Below are positions 936 to 51,347 of a DNA stretch of 64,000 nucleotides, piece after piece (within the stretch, counting starts at the first letter, position 1; the number at the start of each line of letters is the position of its first letter). The stretch is from contig NC_089275.1 in assembly GCF_963678975.1 (NCBI RefSeq), positions 38,788,819 through 38,852,818 on the forward strand, in the 5' to 3' direction. Under the pieces are notes generated by a model. It did no database searches. It was given only the letters and a program-made list of their open reading frames with translations, and was not told the origin of the DNA. The stretch comes from Dysidea avara. Lineage: Eukaryota; Porifera; Demospongiae; Dictyoceratida; Dysideidae. A program made the translations under genes and the position numbers.

Positions 936-1020
936 CAAAATAGAGTCACAATGATAACATGGAGCACACCTGCTTTAGTAGATCTAGAAGTATAAGCAGT
1001 ATATATATATATATATATCT

Positions 1021-1355
1021 AAACCAAAACAGCCAAGCTGTAAAAAAAGAGTGCGGCCCCCAAAAAGGCCAGGATGAAAAAAGATGTGAAATCCAAGGTG
1101 GCGGCCAAGAAATGGCTGTAATGGTAGGTTAATTGCAAAAATTTTAATTACGACAATTCAGGTGAATTTGCATTGCCTCCTCCACTAGGATTCGGCACCA
1201 AATTCAACTGAATTGTCGTAATTAAAATTTTTGCCATTAACCTACCATCACAGCCATTTCTTGGCCACCACCTTGGATTTCACATCTTTTTTCATCCTGG
1301 CCTTTTTTGGGGGCCACACTCTTTTTTTACAGTTTGGCTGTTTTGGTTTAGATAT
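1021..1355. repeat. Palindromic head of composite element, copy 1
   Basis: About 155 bp at the left (from AAAACAGCCAAGCTG) reappears inverted at the right (ending CAGTTTGGCTGTTTT). Both arms carry GGTGGCGGCCAAGAAATGG or its near-exact complement. The centre is a short loop near 1184-1196. It matches the head at 22566-22885, and a lone half-arm occurs at 43995-44110. Confidence 0.9.
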
Positions 1356-1529
1356 CACTTCTTTTTGTATTGCAAGCCACAAATCCAGCCATTAACTGGC
1401 TTTGGTGCTTCCTTCTAACTTGTTTTTTTCTTTTCTGCAGGAATATTGGAACAAAGGAAGAAATGTTGTTAACAGTTTTTTGTATATTTAACAATGAAAG
1501 ATGATTTTGTTTCCGACACATATTTCTAC

Positions 1530-3385
1530 AGGGTGATTTGTTTGTAGCTGATCCCTATAAGGTAACTTGTATCCAGCTGATATCTCCACAGGGTGACTTG
1601 TTTGTAGCTGATCTCTCTACAGGGTGATTTGTTTGTAGCTGAATTCTCTACATGATGGTTTCTTTGTAGCTGAACTCTCTACAAGGTAACTTGTTCTAGC
1701 TGATCTCTCTACAGGGTGAACTTGTTTGTAGCTGAGCTTTCAACTTGATGGTTTCTTTGTAGTTGTATTCTCTACAAGGTAACTTCTTCTAGTTGATCTT
1801 TCTACAGGGTGACTTGTTTGAAGCTGAACTCTCTACATGATGGTTTCTTTGTAGCTGAACTCTCTACAAGGTAACTTCTTCTAGTTGATCTTTCTACAGG
1901 GTGACTTGTTTGAAGCTGAACTCTCTACATGATGGTTTCTTTGTAGCTGAACTCTCTACAAGGTAACTTCTTCTAGCTGATCTTTCTACAGGGCGATTTA
2001 TTTGTAGCTGAATTCTCTACAGGGTGGTTTGTTTGCAGCTGAACTCTCTACATGGTGGTTCTTTGGAACTGAACTCTCTGCAAGGTGACTTCTTATAGCT
2101 GAACTACACTGTGAAAAAGGTGGGATATAAGATGGTATTTCCAGTGGCTTATTGAATACAAATAAGCTTTAATATAAACCCTGTATTATACTCATGTTAT
2201 ACTTTAGTATAATGCATACTATACTATTACATATATGGTTTCAGTTTATTGACCACATTACCTGAAATAGTTTATATCTAGTATAATTCCCACACTATAC
2301 CATCACATATATGGTTTCAATATGTTTAACACATTAAGTAAAGCCTTACATGAGATTGTTAGTATAATATAGGTTATATCAAGCTTTTTTGTATTCAATA
2401 AGCCACTGGAAATACCATCTTATATCCCTCTTTTTTCACAGTGCTATCTACACAGTGATCGTTTCATAGCTGAACTCTCTACATGGTGATTTGTTTGTAG
2501 CTGAACTCTCTACAAGATGATTTGTTTATAGCTGATCTCTCTATAGGATAACTTGTTTGTAGCTGAACTATCTACAGGATGGTTTCTTTGTAGCTGATCT
2601 CTCTACAGGGTGACTTGTTTATAGCTGAACTCTCTACAAGGTGATTTTGTTTGCAGCTGAACTCTCTACAGGGTGGTTTTTTATAGCTGAACTCTACAAG
2701 GTGACTTCTTCTAGCTGATCTCTCTATAGGGCAATTTGTTTGTAGCTGAATTCTCTACAGGATGATTTGTTTGCAGCTGAACTCTCTACATGATGGTTTC
2801 TTTGTAGCTAAACTCTATGCAGGGTGATGTGGTTGTAGCTGAACTCTCTACTGGATGGTTTCTTTGTAGCTGAACTCTCTGCAAGGTGATTTCTTCTAGC
2901 TGATCTCTCTACAATGTAACTTCTTGTAGCTGATCTCTCTACAAGGTGATTTCTTCTAGCTGATCTCTCTACAGGGTGATCTGTTCATAGCTAAACTATC
3001 TGCAGGGTAATTTGTTTGTAGTTAAACTCTCTACAAGGTGATCCTTCTAGTTGATCTCTCTACAGGATGACTGGAACTCTCTACAGGGTGATTTGTTTGC
3101 AGCTGAAATCTCTACATGGTAGTTTCTTTGTAACTGACTTGTCTATAAGGGGATGTCTTGTAGCTGATCTCTCTACTGGATGACTTGTTTCTAGCTGATC
3201 TCTCTATAGAGTTATAACTTTCTCTATAGAGTTATAACATGTTTGTAAGCTGAACTCTTTACAGAGTGGCTTTTTTGATTGATTGCTGAACTCTCCAGCT
3301 ACACGGTGACTTGCTTGCAATACAGAGTGACTTGTTTGCAGCTGAACTCTCTACAGAGTGACTTACTTGTAGCTGAACATTGTAT
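1530..3385 (+). repeat. 31-bp minisatellite array, composite copy 1
   Basis: Tandem units of about 31 bp read roughly TAGCTGAACTCTCTACAGGG followed by TGATTTGTTTG, with variants (GATCTCTC for GAACTCTC, AAGG for AGGG, TTCTTC for TTGTTT). The array is interrupted at 2107-2443 by a MITE and ends at the hAT insertion at 3386. A few diverged units continue at 7230-7440, so the array was contiguous before that insertion. Confidence 0.9.
2107..2443. mobile_element. MITE with 60-bp inverted ends starting CACTGTG
   Basis: The left end CACTGTGAAAAAGG matches the right end inverted (TTTTTTCACAGTG), and the match extends about 60 bp to TTCCAGTGGCTTATTG. CTA sits directly outside both ends, suggesting a 3-bp target duplication. 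The CACTG terminus with a 3-bp duplication suggests a CACTA/EnSpm- or Chapaev-type non-autonomous element; the family is inferred. It was inserted into the 31-bp array. It has no coding capacity. Confidence 0.8.
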
Positions 3386-4069
3386 AAAGTAACCAGTGTT
3401 GGGAGTAACGCGTTACATAATATTATTACTTTTGTGGTAACAAAGTAATATAACGAAATACGCTACAAAAAACAAGTAATATAATTCAAGTTACTTTACT
3501 TACAAATGTAACGCATTACCTAAGTAATATAGTTACTGTAACGATTCTAATATTACATAATATTATTACTACAAGTAACGAAGTTACTAATCTTGTTAGT
3601 AATCCACTGAGTAACGCTTAGCCACAACGAAGTAATGAAGCCTACTGCATGAAGCTTATTCACAGCTTCTTACTTACAATCAAGATTTGCACATTGTCCA
3701 ACAACGCAATCATGTCACGTAATAAGGTGGTAGTTTCACACATGACAGCTTAAGGCTGTGGACACAAAGTAATATAATATGTAATATTATTACAGTTACT
3801 TTATTTTATGGGTAATATGCAGAGTTGGGGTAGTTACTTCAGAAAAGTAACTAGTTACAAGTTACTAGTTACATTTGTTCCATGTAACTTAGTTGCAGTT
3901 ACAGTTACTTTTGTAAAAGTAATAAAGTACTTTAGTTACTAGTTACTTTCAATATTGTGTTTTAAATTATTAATTGATATGTTAATGATGAATAACAATG
4001 GCAAATTACAATGGCAAATTACAATCAGTTCAAAAAAGTCCATCCAATATACCACTGTGTATGTAAAAT

Positions 4070-6082
4070 CTAGATATCTAAGTACTCTTTATTATACTTC
4101 ATAAGCAGTAATTTTTCAAACCGTTCATCAACCAATCTGTTGCGTTTGGGTGATAATACTAATCCTCCAAGACTGAAGAGTCTTTCAACAGGTGCAATAG
4201 AAGGCAGTGCTGTGTTGTACAACAGGAAAAGCCTTTTCACGAGAGGATATTTGTGGAGATTATCAATGCTCTTTGCATTAGCCAAATAGTCATTGGCTTC
4301 TATGTCGACATTACTTTCTGATGTAGACTCATCATCTGATTTGAGGTCATAAAAGTCATCCTTTTTGCTTCTTGTTGATGTTGCCATTTCATCCTGTGAG
4401 TCTTGTACAACTGTTACTCTCATCTCTTGAAGGAGCATCTGCTTATATAAATCCTTTGTGTTCTAGGATTCCACCCATTCAAGCTTAAACTTAGGCAATG
4501 TTACTGCTGCTAAAACGGCACTATCATTTTGAAACACATTTTCAAAACAATATCTGATGGCATCCTCTATAGTCCCAGCAAGCCCACAGGTCTCATGGAA
4601 GAGAGGTCAGGCTGAAGAGCTACCACCTTTTTGATAATTGTCTCTAGCATTGGCAAAAGAGTACCAAAAAAGCAGTTGTCTTCCCCTTGTAAGATGTCGA
4701 GCCCTCTTGAAAGAGGTTTTAAAACAATGACATACTCTTTCAAAAACTTTAGCTCACGTTCACTAAAACACCGTAGCCCCAGTTTGGTGCAAAGATCATT
4801 TAACTCTACTAAAGAATTGTCAGTAACTCGAACTACTGCGTCATAAAGTGAGTTCCACCTTGTGGCAGTAGGTACAATGAGCTTCCTCTTGACTACTTCT
4901 TGCACGGCATCAGATGCCACAGTCGATCTGCTGGCTTTGTTCCACAAAGCTGAGCTTTTAGCAAATGAACTCCGGTAAACACCTTTAGATGTTGAGGAAG
5001 ATGACAGGAATTTATCAGCATCTATGCTTGCAATGAGATTAAGAGTGTGTGCAGCACACCTATAATGTGGCAGCAATTCATATCGTACCTAGGTGAGATC
5101 ATCATCAGTATTTGCTTCCTCGGAGTCAAATGTTAGCAATTCATCAACATTTTCAAAAGCTGTATCATCCTTTGTTTCTTCTTCTGGATCCTCCAGGGGT
5201 GCAGCTGCAGAATCAGAAGAATCTGAATATACTGTGAATGCTTTCACAAAGTTTGACCCATTATCTGTTATGGTAGCACATACTTTCCCAGTAAGACTAT
5301 AGCTTGCATGAACTTGCTCTATCTTGCAAGCCAAAACATCATAAGTATGCCTCCCCATCATTCTTGCACATGCTATGGCCGCTTTGCATCCGAGGGTCAA
5401 TCCAATGGACGGTCATCCCCAAATAGCTTCGGTGGTGTGCCGTTCATACATCAATAGTAGTCGAAACAATATCAACTGTTTCCAACGTCTTTTTGACTTT
5501 GCTGACCATTGAATCATAAACTGTATCAAGATAAACTGTAAAAGAGTTTCTGTCATGTAATTGGGTTGGACAAATACTGCCTAAAAGCTTTCTAAAAGCT
5601 GGGGATTCCACGGTCGACAAAGGTCGCATGTCTTCTATTACATACTCTGCAAGCAAACTTTGTAGCTTATTGGGAGGAATGGAATACCTACTCAACATTG
5701 CTGGTAAAGTGCACTGCCTCTTTGGATCACCATTATTATTGCTATCACCATCAGCCTCCAATCTTCGTTTCCACTGCTCAGGTTTTTAAACTTCTTTTGC
5801 TATCAATGTTGTATTCTTGTGTATAGATGTCAGATGTTTCTTGAGATTTGAAGTTGTATTCTTAGCAGACGACAGCGTTTTATTTCCAGCACACAAAGTA
5901 CAACGGACCTTAAAATTCTTTGCATCTTCACTCAGGAAAACAAAATAATGTCTGTATTTCCATCCGTAAAAAGCTGTCCCTGTCCCTGCTGCTTCGCTGC
6001 TAGAAGCATCGATAGAATCCCGTGTAGAATTCGAAGCACCACTGTTATCTCCCATAGTTTCCACGAAGTTACCCACGCTCAA
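4070..6082 (-). pseudogene. hAT transposase, broken into five frames
   Basis: In N-to-C order, the pieces are as follows. 6082-5786 is a BED-type zinc finger (VRCTLC and LKKHLTSIH giving the C2-H2 pattern). 5761-5444 carries RPLSTVESPAFRKLL, the usual hAT segment before the first catalytic Asp. 5400-5089 has GRHTYDVLA and ATITDNGSNF, the second Asp region. 5076-4567 has YRCAAHTLNLI and RWNSLYDA. 4438-4070 ends with the hAT dimerisation signature ([27 protein letters not shown]). At least four frame changes or stops separate the pieces, so no active enzyme is encoded. The order and motifs leave little doubt about the family; the subgroup was not determined. Confidence 0.92.
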
Positions 6083-6407
6083 ACACGAGGTCCAACACGT
6101 GGTAGATCATGAGATAGTAAGGTGTGCATTAGCAAGAATGGTTTTGTTTATTATTGAAGTCATGCCGCAAAGTCGCCATCCAGCCCATCCTGCTATATAG
6201 CTGCACCTGAACCTGCTGGGTTTTGGGTGCACAAAGGCTACTGAAATCCTGTTTGTTACTTCGCTCTGAATTATTGCTGATGTAGGGTAAGCAACTGTAT
6301 TATACATTACGCGAGGGCGACATTACTAGCTGCCTCGAGTAGACCTAGTAGGTTTACTAGTCAGTTGTTGTAACAACGTTAGTTTACGTAACTTTGTAAC
6401 TGCATTA

Positions 6408-6935
6408 GGGGCACTCCAATTGGTAATTATGTTTCTGGTCCATTGAAAATCAGTTTTAGGTGTGGGCGGGCGAAATTCAGCAACAATGAAGTGACTGCTC
6501 AATTAGAGTATTTTGTGATTTACTGACTGTTCTATTAGAGTATATCAACCCGTATCATGCACTCTGCCCATTTCTTGCAGGTTTTCACTAATAAAATACA
6601 AATTATGATAGTTAGATTTAGCATACTTGTTGCAGCCCAATATATATATATATATAAATTATTAATGAACACGTTTTAACAACACATAAAAACAATTGTT
6701 CTAATCAGTAAGAATACGGCTCTCCACTAAGCGTAGCTCAGTGGAGACAGCGGGGAGCTCGGTTGACTGCAGCTTTCTGCTCCCACGAATGGCCAGTAAT
6801 ATATACTTGTTTCTGAAATCCAGGTTTTTCAAAAAGCTGATGCGGGCATTTTACCCATGTATTTCTGAAATTTCACATTCTCCAAAAAAGGATGCGGGTG
6901 GTGGACCAGAAACATAATTACCAATTGGAGTGGCC
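6408..6935. mobile_element. Harbinger-like MITE inside the hAT transposon
   Basis: The left end GGGGCACTCCAATTGGTAAT and the right end, inverted, GGCCACTCCAATTGGTAAT, match over about 33 bp (through ATGTTTCTGGTCCA). TTA lies just outside both ends (6405-6407 and 6936-6938), the 3-bp target duplication typical of PIF/Harbinger. The interior contains the dispersed GTTCTATTAGAGTAT motif near 6530 and an AT microsatellite near 6641. Confidence 0.8.
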
Positions 6936-7469
6936 TTACTTAATAACCATCATTACTTTACAGTCTCAACTATTGTAACTAGTTACTAACGCGTTACTAT
7001 TGTAACTTAGTTACTATTTCAAGAAGTAATTTTAGTTACAAACTACTAGTTACAAGCTATGTAACGCGTTATATTACTTAGTTACTTAAAAAGTAATATA
7101 TTACGTAACGGCGTTACAATTGTAACGCGTTACCCCAACTCTGGTATAACTAAATAGTTCAGCTGCAAGTAATATGTAATACGTAACTAGTTACTTTTAC
7201 CAAGTAACTTGCCCAACACTGAAAGTAACTTGTTTGTAGCTGGTCTAGATGAACTCTCTACTGGATAGCTTTTTTGTAGTTGAACCCTCTACGCAGTGAC
7301 TTAATTGTTTGTAGCTGAATTCTCTGCAGAGTGACTTGTTGTAGCTGAACTCTCTACAGGGTGACTTGCTTGTAGTTGAATTGTCTATAAGATTAACTTT
7401 TTGTAGCTGAACTCCATACAGAATAACTTGCAATGTAATATAATTCTATAATCGAGTAAGTTATAAACG

Positions 7470-8297
7470 TAGCTGAATGCTCTATTAGGGTGACTGTTCT
7501 ATTAGAGTATCTCGATTTCCCATATGCTACACGTAGTTGGCTTTGGAATCATAACTCAGTGGTTTGTACTCCGATTCTTCTGTACTACTGCAAGGACTTT
7601 CTATGATAATTATTCCAGCTACACACCAATTTTCAGCTCATTGCTCTAAGCGGTTTGCCTGGTAGGCGTGAAAACTAATAGTTTTTTTATTCATAAAAAT
7701 CTATCGCGTAATTGTGACACAGGTTGGGTTTTGTGTCATATCTCGATAGTCTTTAACTGGATTCCTTTCAAACCACAAAAAGGCACTCCTAGGATAGTTA
7801 CTCCATCTACATAGCAATTTTCAGCTCATTCCTTCAAGCGGTTTACCTTGTGGGCGTGACAGACCTTCGACCTTATTCTACGCAAATAATCGGTAATAAC
7901 TCCGTGACTGTTCATCGGATTCCTACCAAACTTGGTACTGAGATTTGCCTTAATGAGCCCTTTAAGTGGCCCAAATTTCAGCCCAATTGGAGCACGAATT
8001 CGTGTTTTATGGCGGATTCTGCAAAGTGTGTGAAAAGAAGTAGAAGAAAAAAACGAAGAAAAAAACCCTAAGTTTGGCCGCTCGTATCTCGGAAATGGCT
8101 GAAGCGATTTTCTTCAAATTTTGAATGTGGACTCCCCTAGCTAGCCAGCACGTCTGTAGCAACTTTGGTTTCAATCTGATAAGGAATCACGGAGCTACAA
8201 AGGTGTGAAAATCGCGTTTACTTTCTTCCTGTTAATATACTCACGGTGTGGCGCGCCGGCTTCTTGGGCCGCACGACACACTACCGAGTGTCTTGAT
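7470..8297 (+). repeat. Conserved tail of composite element, copy 1
   Basis: It is about 828 bp and alignable along its length with 26190-27018. It opens with TGCTCTATTAGGGTGACTG followed by the dispersed GTTCTATTAGAGTAT motif. It ends with a GC-rich hairpin around GGCGCGCC and GGGCCGCACGACACAC. The open frame at 7850-8071 is not conserved in copy 2, so I do not call it a gene. Confidence 0.85.
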
Positions 8298-10844: not shown

Positions 10845-11015
10845 TACAACAACAAGCTCACCGGTGGGATGTGCCTTTTGGGGTTCCGATGAGTGTACAC
10901 CCTATGCGCCTTGTCTTTTCTTTTATCTTCAATCAGGCTGCTTGTCTTCTTCTTCATGCAACGAAACCATATCGAGGCGTTAATTTTCCATATCAACACT
11001 TTCTTTAAGCAGCAT
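10845..11015. repeat. Dispersed repeat shared with 35300-35450
   Basis: GGGATGTGCCTTTTGGGGTTCC here matches GGGATGTGCCTTTTGTGGTTCC near 35327 (shown in short), and the relation continues through the GTTAATTTTC block to AGCATA. It is a diverged repeat of unknown type. The open frames across it are not conserved between copies. Confidence 0.65.
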
Positions 11016-11370
11016 AATAGATGCCACAAAATTGTACGCTACTGTAGCTACGGAGGTACCGGTACTCCACGATAGGTCACAAGGTCACGCCCATTCTTTA
11101 TTCTACGTATATCGATCTATGGATCGAGACCACGCCCCTTTTACGCTAGCTGTATTTTTGACCACACACCTTCAAGTTAGTAGGCTGATTCGAGATACTC
11201 TAGTCTAATAATCAATCGAAACCACGATGAACACACTCTTTTTCGAGCCCTTTTTGGGAAAACACACATCTTTTGCAAGCTGACTCGAGATACTCTAATA
11301 CAGCAGTCACCCTAATAGAACAGTCACACGTTTATAGCTAGCTGTATGCTATAACAAAAAAACTAAACAA
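11016..11370. other. Short diverged direct repeats containing the dispersed motif
   Basis: Two related blocks run ACACACCTTCAAG to GAGATACTCTAG (near 11163-11203) and ACACATCTTTTGC to GAGATACTCTAA (near 11265-11302). Both end in the inverted dispersed motif. CACCCTAATAGAACAGTCAC follows the second. No gene is seen. Confidence 0.45.
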
Positions 11371-11652
11371 ACTAGTATATTAAAAATTATGAATTTAAAA
11401 ATGAAGTAGGGATCCAAGCGATAAAAAGTAGTGAAACAAGAGATGAACAATGGTAGTTATTACAACATAGCTCAGTGGGAAATCCCTACTTTGGCATGGT
11501 ATAACAATTATTTTGTGTTCATTGCCAAAGTAGGGATTTCCCACTGAGTTATATGCTGTAATAACTATACCATTGTTCATCTTTTGTTTCACTACTTTTT
11601 ATCGCTTGGATCCCTACTTCATTTTTAAATTCATAATTTTTAATATACTAGT
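11371..11652. mobile_element. Foldback element, near-perfect palindrome of 280 bp
   Basis: The left arm begins ACTAGTATATTAAAAATTAT, and the right arm ends with its complement. The arms are about 125-130 bp with a loop near 11500-11520, and both carry AGTAGGGATCC and GTGGGAAATCCCTACTTTG. A related but decayed palindrome lies at 37350-37515, sharing GTAGTGAAACAAGAGATGA. Confidence 0.85.
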
Positions 11653-12444
11653 CAGATATAGAACTTAAGAGTTGTACCCTTTAGTCCCTTTTCTAAAATA
11701 AGCTGAACTGCCTCTCTGATCAGCTGAGGCAGTGAATCCATCAGTTCTCCTTATTAAAATGTTGCAGTGCAACTAAAGGTCCATCAAAGAAGGTATGCAA
11801 ACAATATTACATATTTTATGAACATATTAATCTGTTAACCAGAACATATGGCACATTCATAACCACAACAAATCAGTGGTGCCTAATCTCTCAGCTCTGA
11901 CAGCTCACAAGAGGTAATTACTATCACAAAGCTTGTGGTATATAGCATGCACTTCTAATCAGGATAAAAGCAAACACTTACACTGCATTCGATAGTATGA
12001 TGTTGCTATGAAAAAGCCATTAAAGATCTTGAAGTTGGAAAAAAAGCTGTGACTACGTTATGTGTATGTACATAAGGTAGAGTCCAATCTAGTATCCTTT
12101 CTACAATTTTGAAATGCTAGGCAAATACACAGATAGGTTTACAACGGTCAATGCAATGCAGTGGGTAGCAAGAATAGTAGTCAAAGAACCAATGCAATTA
12201 CACTTGTGCGTAACAAAGATGACAAACAATACTTAAAGTTTCTTAGTTTACTAGAGTGGTATATTACCAGTATATGGAACAGTTTATATTTTAGTAGCTT
12301 TTCAGTAAACCCGCATTCACTGATGTTTTACTGAGAGTTTAAAAACTTAGTAAAACAATAATACGTTCCATATAGTTGATATTTTGCTATCAGTATAACT
12401 GGGTACAGCTACAGTAAAGCAGCTTAACAAATTAGTACATTAAG
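11653..12444. other. No gene or repeat recognised
   Basis: AT-rich unique-looking sequence upstream of the collagen gene. No splice-flanked coding segment was found. Confidence 0.4.
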
Positions 12445-12592
12445 CAGTGAAAGGTATCACGATTCAACCTTAAGACTGAGTATTGTGGCTTGTAAGCTAT
12501 CAACTTTTATGGGTATACTGATATATATTCATATCGTGAATCAATTTTGCCATGATATATGACAAAAGAAAAATCTATATCGCCCAACACTA
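12445..12592. mobile_element. Probable hAT-type MITE fragment
   Basis: The right end reads TATCGCCCAACACTAG, the complement of a CTAGTGTTGGGCGATA start that is common in hAT MITEs. The left end CAGTGAAAGGTATCACGAT is only an imperfect inverted match. No clear target duplication is seen. Confidence 0.4.
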
Positions 12593-12603
12593 GTATATAT
12601 ATA

Positions 12604-12842
12604 TGTGAGCGGATTTGCGAAAATGGGTCTTCCACACACATCCAATTCTATGAACTTGGAAGACCATAACTTTGCATTCAAGAAAGATACAAGCCTGAAA
12701 ATTCCACCATCTATTAACCTATGTTGGTGTTTACCGTTGCTTAAATTTCAAGGCAATACCTTTTCCCAATCTTAAGTTATGAATTGCCAAAGTTGATAAA
12801 TTAGATGTGTGTGGAAGATCCCTTTTCGCAAATCCGGTCACA
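12604..12842. mobile_element. MITE with 44-bp inverted ends (TGTGACCGGATTTGCG), copy 1
   Basis: The left end TGTGAGCGGATTTGCGAAAA and right end TTTTCGCAAATCCGGTCACA are inverted repeats extending to the ACACACATCCAATT block. TAT flanks both sides. A second copy in the opposite orientation lies at 59913-60152 with the same internal words (CTTGGAAGACCATAACTT). It has no coding capacity. It lies 175 bp upstream of the collagen start codon. Confidence 0.88.
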
Positions 12843-13017
12843 TATATTTATACAGTACAGTATAAATTGTCAAGAGAAACCATAGTTGCAGTGATGTAAA
12901 AATAACATAATTCTGAGGAGTCTATTGGCTGCACGAAGCCATGCATCAGCAACTACATAATTACTATAATATGAGCATACCAATTGCCTTTACAACACAA
13001 ACAAGGTCATTCGCAAA

Positions 13018-21172: not shown

Positions 21173-24100
21173 CTATTCATAAAAACTATGAGAGTCACAT
21201 TCACTAAAGCACTGTACCCCATGTCTGTTATAGACAAGATCAACTTTATAGTCACTCTTCACAACTGTTCCTCTATCACCAAGCCAAGCAATTTCATCAG
21301 GCCAAGTGCCAGTTGCAATATTGACTAACTCGTTCAGTCAGTTCATGATGAAAGTTATTTTGGTATACACTAGTACTGGGACTATCAAAATGTAATGACA
21401 GACTGACAGATGGGCCTTCTGTGATGTGGGTTTCGTGTTCCCAGCCTGGAAACCACACAAGTCCATCACCATTCCAAAGAGTGACTTCAGCTGGCTTCAA
21501 AACCTACGTAAGAAATTGGATGGAAACAAGGATGACCTGACTGCATATATACAGGAGACATGTATAGTTAGACACACAGTTTAACATGAACAACTAGAAT
21601 ACCACAAGGGCATCACATATTAATGGATAGACAGTTCATAGGCATCCACATTGATACATACCGTAAATGCAACATGCATGCAGACACAGAACATCAACTG
21701 TGTACACTCAAAAACACACACACACAAACATACAATAGTGCATGCTGCAAAAGAATATGTTTCGAAGTGTGTGAGAGCTTGTATGCATGTAAATCTATGC
21801 ACCAATTAAAGCATGCACATACACACATATATGCAAACATATGTACACACAGCAACAGCATGACCACACAGACACATGCATGCATGTGCGCACACACACA
21901 CACACACACGCACGCACACAAACATGTGTGCACGCACACACGCACGAACACACACCCCTATTACAGCTTACAATGACATGAGCACACACTCATTGCACAG
22001 GTTATATACTAATACGTACATTACATACGTACTTCACTCCAGTTTGAAAGATGAAGATCCAAGTCTGTCCCAGCAACAATTGGATACAGTCTCCATTTCT
22101 TAGCTCCTTTAACCTGGACAGAATTATGGCAACATATATGACTAAGAACAGAGGAGCTTGTAAATGATATATATACATACCGTAGGTAATTGACCAATTT
22201 TACAGTTTTGCCCTATAAGAGAGACTCAATCTACATTTCAGTCCTATCACATTGTACTAATCATAGTGAACATATACAAAGTAAATATCTGTGTTGTTCC
22301 AACAGCCCCTTCATACATTTAACCCATGAGGGAAGTGTACTAAGTTTTATGGTAGACATATGTACACATTTAATAGTCACCTGCACTGATATCCGACTGG
22401 TACACATGAGGTCCATGTGACGTCGTGCTCCACATGGGGGATACCCCCAGTGTATCCACTCATTACCTGAAACAAATGCATCCGAATAATTTTAATGTGA
22501 ACAAACCAAGTTGATGTGCTACTTCTAAAAATCAGACACTCAGTTAGATCTTCCTGCTATAAGTATCTAATCAAAAACAGCCAAGCTGTAAAAAAAAAGG
22601 TGCGGCCCCCAAAAAGGCCATGGTGAAAAAAGATGTGAAATCCAAGGTGGCGGCCAAGAAATGGCTGTGATGGTAGGTTAATGGTTACATTTTAATAACA
22701 ACAATTCAGGTGAATTTTGTGCCAAGACCAACCGGCACCAAATTCACCTGAATTGTCGTTATTAAAATGTAACCATTAACCTACCATCACAGCCATTTCT
22801 TGGCCGCCACCTTGGATTTCACATCTTTTTTCACCATGGCCTTTTTGGGGGCCGCACCTTTTTTTTACAGCTTGGCTATTTTTGATTAGATATCACTTCT
22901 TTTTGTATTTGTATACTGCCTTTGGGGCTTTTTTAACCCATGTGTTTTTTTCTTTAACACAGGAAGAAGAAAAGAACTTAAAGAAGAATTTTAGTACTTC
23001 AATTATTTTGATTTTATTAGTAATTATACAAATTATATACATATATTTATTACATGCCCATTATTCCCCACAGGATTTTTTTTGCAGCCGATCTCTCTAC
23101 TGGGTGACTTGAAATGTAGCTGAACTATATACAGGATGGTTTCTTTGTAGCTGAACTCTCTACAAGGTAACCTCTTCTAGCTGGTCTCTCTACAGGGTAT
23201 TTTGTTACTAGCTGAACTCTCTACAGGTGATTTGTTTGCAGCTAAACTCTCTACATGGTGGTGTCTTTGTAGCCGAACTCTCTACATGATGGTTTCTTTG
23301 TAGCTGAACTCTCTGCAGGGTGATTTGTTGTAGCTGAACTATCTACAAGGTAACTTCTTCTAGCTGATCTCTATACAGGGTGATTTGTTTGTAGTTGAAT
23401 TCTGTACGGGTGGTTTCTTTGTAGCTGAACTCTGTACATGATGGTTTCTTTGTAGCTAAACTCTTTACAAGGTGACTTCTTCTAGCTGAACTCTCTACGG
23501 GGTAATTTCTTTGTAGCTGAACTCTCTATATGATGGTTTCTTTATAACTGAACTCTCTACAAGGTAACTTCTTCTAGCTGATCTTTCTACTGGGTGATTT
23601 GTTTGCAGCTGAACTCTCTACATGGTGGTTTCTTTGTTGCTGAACTCTCTACAAGGTGAATTCTTCTACCTGATCTCTCTACAGGGTGATTTGTTTGTAA
23701 CTGAACTCTGTACAAGTGCGTTTTTGTGGGTGATCTCACTGCAGGTTGATTTGTTTGTAGCTGAACTCACTAGAGGGTGATTTTGCTTGTAGCTGAACTC
23801 CTTGCATTGTATCTAGTATCTAGCTGATCTCTCTACAGGGTGATTTGTTTGTAGCTGATCTCTCTACAAGTTGATTTGTGTGTAGCTGATCTCTCTGCAG
23901 GTTTATTAATTTGCAGCCGATCTCTCTACAAGGTAATTTGTTTGTAGCTGAACTGTCTATAAAGTGATTTATTTGTAGCTGATCTCTCTGCAGGTTGATT
24001 TGTTTTAGCTGAACTCTCTACAGGGTGATATACTTGTAGCTGAACTCCTTACATTGTGTCTAGTTTCTAGCTGATCTCTCTACAGGGTGATTTGTTTGTA

Positions 24101-27100
24101 GCTGATCTCTCTACAAGTTGATTTGTGTGTAGCTGATCTTTCAACTGGTTGATTTGTTTGTAGCCGATCTCTCTACAGGGTAATTTGTTTGTAGCTGAAC
24201 TCTGTACAAGGTGCTTTTTTGTAGGTGATCTCACTGCAGGTTGATTTGTTTGTAGCTGAACTTACTAAAGGGTGATTTGCTTGTAGCTGAACTCCTTACA
24301 TTGTGTCCAGTTTCTAGCTGATCTCTCTACAGAGTGATTTGTTTGTAGCTGAACTCTCTACATGGTGGTTTCTTTGTTGCTGAACTCTCTACAGGGTGTT
24401 TTGCTTGTAGCTGAACTCTCTGCAGGGTGATTTGTTTCTAGCTTATCTCTCTACAGGTTGATTTGTGTGTAACTGATCTCTCTACAAGCTGATTTGTTTG
24501 TAGCTGAATTCTCTGCAAAGTGTTTTGTTTGTAGCTGACCTCTCTTCAGGGTGATTGTTTATAGTTGATCTCTCTACAGGGTGATTTTTTTGTAGCTGAA
24601 CTCTCTACAAGTTGATTTGTGTGTAGCTGATCTCTCTGCAGGTTGATTTGTTTGTAGCCGATCTCTCTACAGGGCAATTTGTTTGTAGCTGATCTCTCTA
24701 CAGGGTGATTTATTTGTAGCTGACCTCTCTTCAGGGTGATTTGTTTCTAGCTGATCTCTCTACAGGGTGATTTTTTGTAGCTGACCTCTCTTCAGGGTGA
24801 TGTGTTTCTAGCTGATTGCTCTGCAGGTTGATTTGCTTGTATAGATGAACTCTCTACAGGGTAACTTGCTTGTAGCTGAACTCCTTACTTTGTGTCTAGT
24901 TTGTAGCTGATCTCTCTACAGGGTGATTTGTTTGTAGCTGAACTCCTTACATTGTGTGTAGTTTCTAGCTGATCTCTCTACAGGGTGATTTGTTTGTAGC
25001 CGATCTCTGTACAAGGTAATTTGTTTGTAGCTGAACTATCTATAAGGTGATTTGTATGTAGCTAATCTCTCTGCAGATTGATTTGTTTTAGCTGAACTCT
25101 GATTTGTTTTTAGCTTATCTCTGTACATGCAGGTTGATTTGTGTGTAACTGATCTCTCTACAAGCTGATTTGTTTGTAGCTGATCACTCTGCAGGTTGAT
25201 TTGTTTCTAGATGATCTCTCTGCAGGTTGATTTGTTTGTTGCTGATCGCTCTAAAGGTTGATTTGTTTGTAGCTGAACTCTCTGCAAAATGTTTTGTTTG
25301 TAGTTGATCTCTCTACAAGGTGATTTTTTGTAGCTGACCTCTCTTCAGGGTGATTTGTTTCTAGCTGATCGCTCTACAGGTTGGTTTGTTTGTAGCTGAA
25401 CTCTCTACACGGTGATTTGCTTGTAGCTGAACTCCTTACATTGTGTCTAGTTTCTAGCTGATCTCTCTACAGGGTGATTTGTTTGTAGCTGATCTCTCTA
25501 CAAGTTGAATTGTGTGTAGCTGATCTCTCTGCAGGTTGATTTGTTTGTAGCCGATCTCTCTACAAGGTAATTTATTTGTAGCTGAACTGTCTAAAAGGTG
25601 ATTTATTTGTAGCTGATCTCTCTGCAGGTTGATTTGTTTTAGCTGAACTCTCTACAGGGTGATTTATTTGTACTGAACTCCTTACATTGTGTCTAGTTTC
25701 TAGCTGATGTCTCTACAGGGTGATTTTTTGTAGCTGAACTCTCTTCAGGGTGATTTGTTTCTAGCTGATCTCTCTACAGGTAGATTTGTGTTGATTTGTT
25801 CATTGCTGATCGCTCTAAAGGTTGATTTGTTGCAGTTGAACACTCTGCAAAGTGTTTTGTTTGTAGCTGATCACTCTAAAGGGTAATTTGTTTGTAGCTG
25901 AACTCTCTCCACAGTGACTTGTGTGTAGCTGAATTCTGTGTAACTGAATTCTCTAGAGAGTGACTTAATTGTAGCTGAATTCTCTACACAGTGCATGACT
26001 TGTTTATAGCTGAACTTTCTTCAGTGTGACTTGTAATGTTCTGAATCTCTATACAGATATATTTGCTTAACTCTCCTCATTGTGACTGTCTTCTTGCTGA
26101 ACTGTCTATAAGATTAACTGTTTGCAGTTGAACTCCCTACAGAATAACTTGTGATGTAATAAAATTCTATAATGGAGTAAATAAATTAGCCTAATGCTCT
26201 ATTAGGGTGACTGTTCTATTAGAGTATCTCGATCTCGCATTTGCTACACGGAGTTGGCTTTCGAATCATAACTCAGTGGTTTGTAATCCGATTCTTCTGT
26301 ACTACTGCAAGGACTTTCTATGAAGATTATTCCAGCTATACACCGATTTTCAGCTCATTGCTCTAAGCGGTTTGCCTAGTAGGCGTGAAAACTAATACTT
26401 TTTTATTCATAAAAATCGATCGCGTAATTGTGACACAGGTTGGGTTTTGTGTCATATCTCCGTGGTCTTTATCTCGATTCCTTTCAAACCACCAAAAGGC
26501 ACTCCTACGATGGTTACTCCATCTACATAGCAATTTTCAACTCATTCCATGAAGCGGTTTACCCTGTAGGCGTGACAACAAATCGATCTTGTTTTACGCG
26601 AATAATCGGTCATAACTCCTGAACCATTCATCGGATTTGTACCAAATTTGATGCTAGGATTCGCCTTTGGACTCCCTTTCTGTGTACCAAATTTCAAGGC
26701 GATCGGAGTACGCGTTTGCTTGTTATAGCAATTTTTGCAAGTGTGCGAAAAGACGAAGAAGAAAAAAAAAACGAAGAAAAAAAAACGAAACTTTGGCAGC
26801 TCGTATCTCGGAAATGGCTGGAGCGATTTCCTTCAAATTTGGAATGTAGACTCCCTTGGCTGGCGGGCAACTGTGTAGCAAATTTGGTTCCAATCAGATA
26901 AGTGATCACCGAGATACAAAGGTGTGAAAATGACGTTTTCGTTCTTCCTGTCAATATACTCACGGTGTGGCGCGCCGGCTTTTTGGGCCGCACGACACAC
27001 TACCGTGTGTCTTGATATATTTATTTTTAAAATTCAATCTGGTTTTGTATTAAATGGTACATACATTTTGCCATAAATCGTAACTCCAGGTATATTTTAC

Positions 27101-30786: not shown

Positions 30787-33700
30787 GTGTACAATGATGT
30801 TCAACTTTTCAATATGCAAAAAAATTGTAACATGACTTTCATATACATAAGAAATTGTGGTGGTAATAAACCTTGTGCTACATGATGGACCTCTCAACAG
30901 ATCTTCGTGATAAAAGTAGGACCAGAAAGTCCACGGATGTTGAGCATGTCTACTTTCCCTTTGGTCGACCTGGTGGAGGAGCTCCAAATAAACCCCGCCA
31001 TCCCAACTTTGTTGAATCAAATTATGAGGTACTATACATAAGCTATGCATTTAATTGTATGCATTAGTTGGGATTAAAATTGTATCCCAGTAATGAAGTG
31101 TTCCAGCTAATTAGTAGTTGCATTGAAATGTCAGTGACCATGTCAAGTTGATCCCAAACATAGCTAAGGTGTATTTCATGACCTCATTAATAAGACTACC
31201 TCATCATAGTGACCGGTCTCAAACACAGCTAAAAGATTCTGTAACATTTTTAGTAGATCAAGCAATACTACAAATGCAAATTTCCAGATCTTGTGTAACT
31301 GTATCCATGACTTATTATATTTTTTTTAGGAATCAGCTCAGCATGAACGAACCATAATAAAGTCATGAAGTACACCTTTGCTATGTTTAGGACCTACTTA
31401 ATATGGTCAATATAATGAGGTGGTCTTATTAATGAGGTCATGAAGTACACCTTTGCTATGTTTGGGACCTGCTTAACATGGTCACTACAATGAGGTGGTC
31501 TTATTAATGAGGTCATGAAGTACACCTTGACCATGTAGGCTCCGAGGTGCACTTCATGACCACATTAATAAGACAACCTCATTATAGCAACCACGTCAAG
31601 TAGGTCCCAAACATACCGTATATCAAAAATATTTTTAGGAGGGAAATTTTTGCTGATTTTGTGGTTTTGGGGGTTATCAGTGAAAACTTTATAATTGAAA
31701 TATCTAGCTCACCCTCAAAGTATTTAGGCTGTACAGTAGCTAAGATGTACTTCATGACCTCATTAATAAGACCACCTCATTATAGTGACCATGTAAAGTA
31801 GGTCCCAAACATACACAGCTACTATAGTGAGGTCCACTTATTACTAAGGTCATGACGTACATCTTATCTATATTTGGGTCCTACGTACTTGACATGTTCA
31901 CTATAATGAAGCAGTCTAACAAGTGAGGTAATGAAATACATCTGTGTTTTGGACCTACCCAACCCAGACATTATAATGGACTGTGTCCTTGTCATGATGT
32001 ACAACCTACAATATATCAACAAGGTCTTACGTATGTAGAGGTGGCCCCACTAAATAAGCGGTTTTACTATAATTATTGTAATCATTTGTGTGCATTGCTT
32101 TGTATAGGTGTGTGTGTGTGCATATGTATATTCCCTATTGAAATTGACCCTGTAATGTTTTCTATTAGATTCATGCCACTAATCAAGACATGAGCTCACA
32201 GCACTTGGACAAAGTTCAGCAGTCAAAGACAATAACTTCTGATATATACTCTCCTCAGGGCTCAACAAACACCAGTCCTAGAAAATACACTGAGTAAGTG
32301 ATGATATAATGTATCAATCTATCCACCAAGAGTTCCATGGAACCCTCCTTTTGAGAAGAGCTTTGGTCACTTTTTTGGCTAACATTTGGTGATCAGGTTA
32401 TGAATTACTTATTGCACAACTTTTAGTCCTCAGATCACTTGCATTTGTCACAAACCCATCTTGAAACTGGATCCAGTCTCAATAAACGTATCCATCAAGT
32501 GCCTCTAAAAATAATTTTTGACGTGTTGATTTTCAGCTTTTATTGTATCTGCTTTGTTAAGGCTTCAAATCTTTCAGCAAATGGTATTGTGAAACAATGT
32601 TGAGGAGTGATTTTTACTATTAGCAATGAGTTTAAATTATGGGAGGAAATGGATGATTTTGTGTGCTGTCAAACTTCCACACTAAAAAGGCCTTTGATGG
32701 CTACATTAAATGTTAATCTAAAGCCTATGTACACTCCCTGTATGTACAACTTATGCCTTCCCAGATGTTGTGCGTACACACATGCACACTTCAACTAGTA
32801 TAGAAACAGGAGCTCATAAGTGCTGCAAGGCGTTTATAAGCTCCTGATAGAAATAATCACCTACAGCTTGTTATAGTCATGGCGGCCTGGTCACAGTGTG
32901 TACATGTAGGCCACTCCATGCTTGTTTACAGAAAAATTATATTGTCACCATTACTTTTGCTCATCTGTATACATTGCATGATGTTGGCTACATTACAGGT
33001 ACAGTACATATGTATATTTTATAATAGAATGTATGCATGTATAATGTGAATGCATATACTTTATACGTATATGTACATACATAAAATGATCACATATTGT
33101 TTACCAGTACCCTGGTAATTCCACCATACTAGCAGAATAAAACATGTTTATATTAATCTGTATTATTTTTGTATGTTCAACCAAATGTACCTGTACATTG
33201 TGCTTTACAGATTTGTGAAAGATACTGTAAGACTAATACTGTAATTTATCCTTGCTCTTGGTGTCCCTCTATACATATGTATGTAGTTACACTGTAAAGC
33301 ATTCATGAGTACTACAAACTATTAATTTGAAACTTATGTAATCAGGTGTTCTTTGTAAACTAAGAGGGTGTCAGGGGTGTCTTTAAGATGAGTTCCACGT
33401 TAGTTTACAAGTGTTTTGCTGTAATTTCACTGCTTATAAAATATACATATGTTCATCAATGTATGTCAATTTCTGCAGACATACGTAGCAATGATCATAA
33501 TAAAAAGTTGGTTATTTGTGCCTTCAAGAATTGTTGTTTACACTATAATACTTGTGATTGCACGCCTTTGCTTAGTGTACACGTGTATTATGTCAGTGTG
33601 TTCTCACTATAGTATTAGTCCTACTCATGCTAAAAGTGTTTATCTTGAGCAGTGGCAGATTGAGGAGAGAGAATCAAAGCGACGAAAGGGGCTTGAACAC

Positions 33701-43994: not shown

Positions 43995-44110
43995 GGATCA
44001 TTAATATTACATCATTGCAGCCATTTCTTGGCTGCCATTTTGATTTCACAACTTTTTCACCCTGGCCTTTATGGAGGGCAGCTCTCTTGTTTCAAAGCTA
44101 GTCTGTTTTG
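43995..44110. repeat. Solo half-arm of the composite element head
   Basis: CAGCCATTTCTTGGCTGCCAT to GTTTTGGTATAGATTA (in short) matches the right arm of the palindromes at 1195-1355 and 22737-22885, without the left arm, array or tail. Confidence 0.7.
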
Positions 44111-44139
44111 GTATAGATTAATTTTTTATTGCTGAAGAT

Positions 44140-50500: not shown

Positions 50501-50812
50501 CTTCACCCAATGGTCCAGAATGATCTAACCGCATCCGGTAGTAGCTAGTGTGTTTATAAATTCGAGCACTTAGTTAATTGATTCAAGTGTATATGTTTAC
50601 TTTTGTCTCCAGGAATCTGCCCCTGGTTCAGTCCCGTCTTTCCTTGCCCCGTACAGAATTTCCATCGAAGTTAAGGCAGGTCTGTTTCTCTCGAGCGTGC
50701 GTGTCATTGATGTTTTCCTTCTTTGCTTAGTGATCATTATTTAGAGTTTAAGCGTCTCGACATCAAAGAACTCGTTGCCCTAATATGTCACAACTGAACA
50801 GCCAGTAGTCTT
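50501..50812. other. No gene recognised
   Basis: Somewhat less AT-rich sequence that could be a 5' region for the minus-strand duplicated segment. I cannot support a promoter call. Confidence 0.3.
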
Positions 50813-51235
50813 GTGAGGGTGGTGTTACTGATATTTCGCTAGGTGAGTGGTTATGTTGTTAATGCACCTATCAATGTAATCCTTGACTACCAGGGATACT
50901 AGTGTCGCATGTTTGGGTGGGGAGAAAAGAATCTGGTGCAACTCCAGTAGCTGTTTACTTCTGAGCCGTTCCCAGAATCTGGGGACGTTAATTGAATAAC
51001 ATTGTCCACAAAGGAGGCGTGTGAGGGTGGTGTTAATGACATTTCGCTAGGTGAGTGGATATGTTGTTCTGCACCTATCAATGTAATTCCGCGACTACCA
51101 GGGATACTAGTGTCGCGTTTTTTCCATGTATTGGGTGGGGAAAAAAGAGTCTGATGCAACTCCAGTAGCTGTTTACTTCTGAGCCGTTCCCAGACTTTGG
51201 GGACGCTAATTGAATAGCATTGGCCGCAAAGGAGG
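50813..51235. repeat. Two tandem units of about 210 bp
   Basis: 50813-51018 and 51020-51235 share GTGAGGGTGGTGTTA, CACCTATCAATGTAAT, CTCCAGTAGCTGTTTACTTC and CGTTCCCAGA..GGGGACG. A third, inverted partial copy lies near 51429-51516. On the minus strand, both units can be read as a related peptide (SGNGSEVNSYWSC). Confidence 0.85.
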
Positions 51236-51347
51236 CGCCAATGACATCAGTAAGTAAACTCGAGATGGCTTCGATCTGTTTATCCTTTAAATGATTCTTA
51301 ATTTGCTCCGATATCTCTTTCATAGCATCTTGAAAGTTCATCCTCAT
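51078..51347 (-). other. Uncertain small open frame over the tandem unit
   Basis: An 89-codon frame whose first half (MRMNFQDAMKEISEQIKNHL) is helix-like and lies outside the repeat, while the second half is repeat sequence. No family is recognised. It could be an exon ending in repeat or chance. Confidence 0.25.

Follow-up and report, generated by a model that had tools for sequence, protein, structure and literature searches.

The 64 kb stretch of the Dysidea avara genome analyzed here, referred to as the window (contig C4, positions 38788819-38852818, in an assembly of 550.8 Mb and 108 contigs), contains two large noncoding loci that raise a single question: are their repeats chance neighbors or parts of one mobile unit, and how would such a unit move? 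A sequence-only reading of the window had described a palindromic head, an array of 31-bp repeats, and a conserved tail, alike in order and orientation, at positions 1021-8297 and 22566-27018. It had suggested that the whole moves or duplicates as a unit and that its plan resembles that of Helentron-derived elements. We find that head, array, and tail do move as one unit and that the unit is a very abundant, recently active, protein-free element. It is very probably a non-autonomous Helitron-like (rolling-circle) transposon; the proposed Helentron derivation was not borne out.

All three modules were located, in the order and orientation described, in both copies. The second of these is complete, and its features on the forward strand of the window are as follows.

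22566..27015, + strand: copy 2, a complete element (TC...TTGA) read as non-autonomous and Helitron-like, between host A at 22565 and host T at 27016; boundaries from 30 head loci, 11 tail ends, and two nested insertions
22566..22890, + strand: 5' head of copy 2, a palindrome (325 bp) beginning at the 5' terminus
23077..25932, + strand: 31-bp tandem array of copy 2, 92.5 units, from Tandem Repeats Finder (TRF)
26180..27015, + strand: conserved tail of copy 2, start approximate, 99-100% identity in 40 scored genome copies
26994..27011, + strand: 7-bp 3' hairpin GACACAC-TACC-GTGTGTC, 4 nt before the terminus, from sequence and fold

The start at 22566 stood as first given, and the end was moved from 27018 to 27015, since position 27016 is the host T. 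The inner arms of the palindrome are 133 nt long and 98% complementary, and the outer arms are 51 nt long and 84% complementary. A GC-rich terminal hairpin had also been noted; it is present at about 26965-26993, side by side with the 3' hairpin at 26994-27011. The other locus was likewise correct, with limits revised from 1021-8297 to 1018-8296.

1018..8296, + strand: copy 1, an older subfamily copy with nested insertions
1018..1352, + strand: head palindrome of copy 1, inner arms 114 nt, 96%
2107..2443, strand unassigned: MITE-like (miniature inverted-repeat transposable element) insertion in the array of copy 1, 337 bp, with 63-bp inverted ends
3394..7221, - strand: hAT transposon in the array of copy 1 (BED finger, hAT dimerisation region), with an 8-bp target-site duplication (TSD) at 3386-3393 and 7222-7229
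7462..8296, + strand: tail of copy 1, start approximate, 85% identity to the tail of copy 2

The array of copy 1 lies in three pieces (1525-2105, 2447-3206, and 7273-7430), and this copy differs in appearance partly because the hAT element, bordered on both sides by AAAGTAAC, and the MITE-like element sit inside it. The tails of the two copies can be aligned, as anticipated, at 85% identity and the heads at 87%, and copy 1 therefore comes from an older lineage.

The abundance of the family was determined from searches of the whole genome. The 30-bp 3' end of the element occurs exactly 5,092 times, and the reversed control does not occur at all; at up to three mismatches there are 12,665 3' ends and 10,849 head junctions. 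First-look searches returned 1,751 candidates for the tail and 1,474 for the head, and 40 of each were scored, with identities of 99-100% for the tails and 97-100% for the heads. Most elements are about 3-5.5 kb long and, at that length per copy, the family would very roughly make up 5-10% of the assembly.

The linkage of the modules was measured on C1 from 0 to 9.4 Mb, where an exact tail follows downstream on the same strand, no more than 12 kb away, for 26 of 39 exact heads (distances 1.8-10.9 kb). In 2000 random rotations the mean was 2.4 and the maximum 9. A tail on the same strand but on the wrong side was found for 3 of the 39 heads, and 8 of the 39 have one on the opposite strand at up to 12 kb. 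Starting from the tails, an exact head was found for 27 of 100 exact tails, a low figure because heads with any mismatch are absent from the list. In longer stretches, each of four tails leads upstream to a head in the same orientation. Arrays of the 31-bp type lie beside 29 of 30 heads and all eight tails, and the single arrayless head (L032) is interrupted by a nested copy.

The modules might instead be unrelated neighbors, or all joint copies might descend from one segmental duplication, and there are observations that could be read in this way. Diverged single arms are found at 26 of 40 scored places, with a second inverted arm at the other 14 (a decayed second arm could be missed), and a single arm also lies in the window, with no second arm seen in the surrounding sequence:

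44018..44130, - strand: diverged solo head arm, end approximate; 44018-44109 matches head arms at 81-83%

Locus L050 has an array and tail without a head, and one pair among the 30 head loci (L029 and L030) has a common flank. Against this stand the linkage of 26/39 versus 2.4 and of 4/4, copies spread over many contigs, flanks that differ at all the other head loci, and unrelated 3' flanks of the two copies in the window. The sequence-only reading had named separate modules and a single segmental duplication as what would overturn it; we regard either as extremely improbable. The L029 and L030 heads themselves, 292 kb apart on C8, lie in a duplicated stretch that carries the element along with its 5' flank.

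The two copies in the window have some likeness farther upstream. Diverged exon-like pieces at 22367-22476 and 832-939 are 86% identical over 110 bp, and a second pair at 22070-22102 and 529-561, similarly spaced, is 91% identical over 33 bp. To judge from these matches they probably reflect a diverged local gene duplication; Pfam returned no family for the peptide tried from them. No likeness was found between the copies in the 80-90 bp directly before the heads or in the 500 bp after the tails. Insertion of both copies at the same site was ruled out on these grounds, and the copies therefore entered separately.

The earlier reading had proposed that insertion sites be aligned for precise termini and any empty sites. 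The element starts with TCTAATC and has a GACACACTACCGTGTGTC-TTGA end. Host A precedes the start at each of the 30 head loci, and all 11 tail ends of the young family read TTGA followed by T. Two nested insertions give the uninserted form of the target. In the first (L031 and L047), an array unit is split as AAGGTGA/TCCTTCTAG, and the joined unit is present in copy 1. In the second (L048 and L032), a stretch after another head is split as AATAAATA/TATGTATATAATTTG, and the joined form is found in other heads. By comparison with these uninserted paralogous repeats, no base is duplicated at either site, and the element is inserted between A and T without a TSD. The placement at such a site can slide one base either way; the Helitron convention of TC...TTGA was adopted.

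Tails directly joined to heads, with no intervening base, were found at 137 places in the genome at up to two mismatches, 26 of them exact. Four consecutive junctions on the same strand, two exact and two with one mismatch, lie 4.1, 6.0, and 5.2 kb apart at C3:35139267-35154626, and this run, known from its junctions alone, looks like a tandem multimer.

The ends of the element can be compared with those of known rolling-circle transposons. Helitron1 elements start with TC, end with CTRR, have a hairpin 10-12 nt from the end, and insert between A and T. Helitron2/Helentron elements have asymmetric terminal inverted repeats (ATIRs), hairpins at both ends, and T-rich targets (PMC5148889, PMC3627910). 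HINE elements have subterminal inverted repeats, central tandem repeats, and a 3' palindrome (PMC4067079, PMC7492417). The 5' TC next to host A (30/30 heads and both nested insertions) and the insertion between A and T without a TSD are as in Helitron1. The central tandem repeats and the 3' palindrome are as in HINE/Helentron elements.

The latter likeness raises the alternative that the element is a HINE and so belongs to the non-autonomous Helentron/Helitron2 elements, among them DINE-1 and Cg_HINE of the oyster. The body plans are alike, with a palindromic 5' part, central tandem repeats, and a 3' hairpin (PMC4067079, PMC7492417), and a GTGCGG..CCCAAAAAG match connects the head and tail of copy 2. 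The target, however, is between A and T, and not TT or between TTTT and T or C; Helitron1 is marked by the 5' TC and by the CTRR ends that 10 of 12 older relatives have. The head-tail subterminal inverted repeat is not significant, since an equally high score is reached by 98, 333, 863, and 633 of 1000 shuffles for the four copies evaluated. We therefore consider membership in the HINEs, and with it the Helentron derivation first proposed, to be very unlikely.

The older relatives were collected using the diverged tail beside L004 as the query, which gave 879 candidates, of which 40 were scored and 12 fetched (one, L072, is the query's own place). Eight of the 12 end with CTGA followed by T (L072, L073, L074, L077, L078, L079, L081, and L083, the last beyond the end of the match), L075 ends with CTGG and L082 with CTAA, each again followed by T, and L076 and L080 are decayed at the end. 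The TTGA of the young family is one change from CTGA. The CTGA-type pattern occurs exactly at 54 places in the genome; at one mismatch the count reaches 1,951, which cannot be taken for the number of CTGA ends because all 46 one-mismatch matches listed read CTTGA.

A palindromic head lies upstream of the tail in four of these relatives (L073, L074, L078, and L079), the end of the head being separated from that of the tail by about 1.15-1.3 kb. In the other eight, a search of 1.5 kb upstream gave no such palindromic head, and the palindromes in L075 and L076 are unrelated. No 31-bp array was found within 1.5 kb upstream of the tails in L073-L083. From these four array-free relatives, the array seems to have been added later to an element that consisted compactly of head and tail.

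An autonomous partner was sought among the Rep genes of the sponge. There are at least 150 Helitron_like_N matches in the genome (150 of 230 candidates scored), and Rep/helicase genes are therefore present. The downstream sequence was examined for 19 of the 150 matches listed. Ten (A1, A2, A3, L066, L051, L065, L067, L068, L069, and L071) end with CTAG followed by T and have a hairpin that lies about 12 nt short of this end. Eight (L058-L064 and L070) have no match to the ends of the element, the best being 24 bp with E 0.07, which is at chance level. One has an ordinary copy as a neighbor.

Several candidates were rejected. The Helitron at C5:5450409 looked promising, with a 31-bp array and a tail of 73.6% identity following the gene, but the ends of its copies A1, A2, and A3 come earlier, with GCGCATTTTGCGCGGGTACCACTAG or a close variant followed by T, and A2 and A3 have neither array nor tail. 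Rep families B and C end with CTAG followed by T, and an ordinary head in the opposite orientation follows L068. At 7.8 kb downstream of the Rep match at C1:8486802 there is a variant of the end with one mismatch, but the head and 31-bp array of an ordinary copy lie in between. Separately, the headless array and 73.6% tail at positions 2250-3769 of L050, downstream of an autonomous Helitron, were taken as a separate insertion. A different tandem array, of the GTAAACAAAAGTGCACTTTAAAAAG type, lies behind a Rep-like gene that has a large open frame in L059 and L070, with 95-99% likeness between the two; we regard this as another Rep element with array cargo.

It may be asked whether some other transposase that makes no TSD moves the element, which would then be a Helitron in looks only. 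The Replitron-type HUH Rep is an example of such an enzyme. None of the 19 Rep matches examined shares the ends of the element, and its hairpin nearly abuts its end, as this alternative would allow. On the other side, the TC start, the target between A and T, and the older relatives with CTRR ends occur together, and we judge the alternative improbable, at about the level of membership in the HINEs or slightly below.

Several observations weigh against a Helitron-like identity. The young family ends with TTGA and not CTRR, and its hairpin is 4 nt and not 10-12 nt from the end. The sequence downstream of the 19 Rep matches gave no autonomous element that has these ends. All copies come from a single assembly, so that no polymorphic insertion was seen. 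A second copy inserting between the A and T at the 3' end of a first can yield an identical tail-head junction, which slightly lowers our confidence. With these points included, it remains most likely that the element moves in the manner of a Helitron and has elements with CTRR ends as its relatives; canonical membership in Helitron1 is not claimed.

For Helraiser, the hairpin acts as a terminator and circles are formed (PMC4778049). We infer the following course for the present element. A Rep/helicase supplied in trans would nick between host A and the TC, and one strand would be displaced through head, array, and tail, stopping at the 3' hairpin and the TTGA that follows. The displaced strand would insert between A and T with no duplication of the target, and a failed stop would give head-to-tail multimers. 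The head and tail may be regarded as a conserved chassis and the 31-bp array as cargo that was taken on later and gains and loses length. Once its strand is free, the palindromic head would fold, and its arms would occasionally copy each other and so stay matched.

The palindrome is the unusual trait of the element: an unusually long hairpin that begins at the 5' end and whose arms mostly change together. This was quantified with 10 heads from several subfamilies (L073, L078, L075, L076, and most young copies were left out), using the structure of copy 2. Under this structure, 96.5% of the cells pair. Both sides have changed in 39 of 154 pairs (70 cells, versus 19.2 expected), a result reached in 0 of 500 shuffles, which do not preserve relatedness; slid controls gave at most 10 such pairs. 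Of the remainder, 9 pairs vary on one side, 26 depart only through unpaired cells, and 80 are invariant. The small number of one-sided steps suggests that one arm was copied from the other rather than slowly compensated.

Frequent copying is opposed by the comparison of 19 heads, in which the arms of the young family differ by about 4-6%, so that they are not matched anew at every jump. In L048 and L044up the two arms of a copy clearly resemble each other more than they resemble the arms of other copies, in win1, L079, L074, and L073 only slightly more, and in L078 and L068 the relation is reversed. Selection on structure may be the cause of the matching, and so may occasional arm conversion.

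The palindrome may be a working part of the transposon, whose free 5' end folds into a hairpin, each arm of about 150 bp serving as the template of the other while the element is copied. A single 5' module would then have been doubled in inverted orientation and kept matched, perhaps for a self-priming or end-protecting step. We put this forward tentatively and think it rather doubtful. A 5' hairpin step of this kind is not described in the excerpts of the Helitron literature compared, and no Helitron with a 5' palindrome of such length was found among the titles and abstract openings of open-licence papers, a set that does not cover Repbase. An origin of the head arm as a captured exon was set aside: a lysine-rich peptide can be read from it, but it has no Pfam family and the older arms differ by indels, and the arm was treated as structural. 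Rfam returned three microRNA-precursor matches at the hairpin, all below gathering scores, and these were taken as matches to a long hairpin.

Further repeats were seen in the window. The tails contain the motif CTATTAGAGTA, which is also scattered over other parts of the window, at 12 places in all (for example, 6532, 7499, 26216, and 46028), and 49 times in the fetched loci, which partly overlap. Short tandem duplications reported by TRF at 31355-31528 and 50812-51237 (units of 75 and 218 bp) are unrelated to the element.

The element can be compared with three known groups. It is like canonical Helitron1 elements (Helraiser/Helibat) in its 5' TC, its target between A and T, its lack of a TSD, its 3' hairpin, and the CTRR (mainly CTGA) ends of most older relatives. 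It differs in the TTGA end of the young family, the 325-bp palindrome at the 5' terminus, the lack of a protein of its own, and the hairpin position, 4 nt from the end compared with 11 in Helraiser (PMC4778049). With HINE, DINE-1, and Cg_HINE it has in common palindromes near both ends, a central tandem array between fixed flanks, and no TSD; the targets there are T-rich, the palindrome arms are 5-15 bp versus about 150 bp here, and the subterminal inverted repeats have no significant counterpart here (PMC4067079, PMC7492417). As in Helitron2 and FoHeli elements, there is a hairpin at both ends. Further likenesses are the compensatory changes described for two related Helitron2 elements in their terminal structures, the TC start of FoHeli1/2, and a 5' terminus that is repeated in some FoHelis. 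These elements differ in their 8-16-bp ATIRs, short 5' hairpins, and 3' ends such as ATTTT and CTCCTGT (PMC3627910, PMC5148889).

Helitron1-like ends are here joined to a HINE-like body plan, and the two plans are thus not exclusive. With about 11,000-13,000 ends, thousands of identical 30-bp 3' ends, directly joined tails and heads, and a long terminal hairpin, the family constitutes a natural experiment in which to study how a rolling-circle transposon initiates, terminates, and acquires arrays resembling satellites, and the element provides an example of a minisatellite carried through a genome as transposon cargo.

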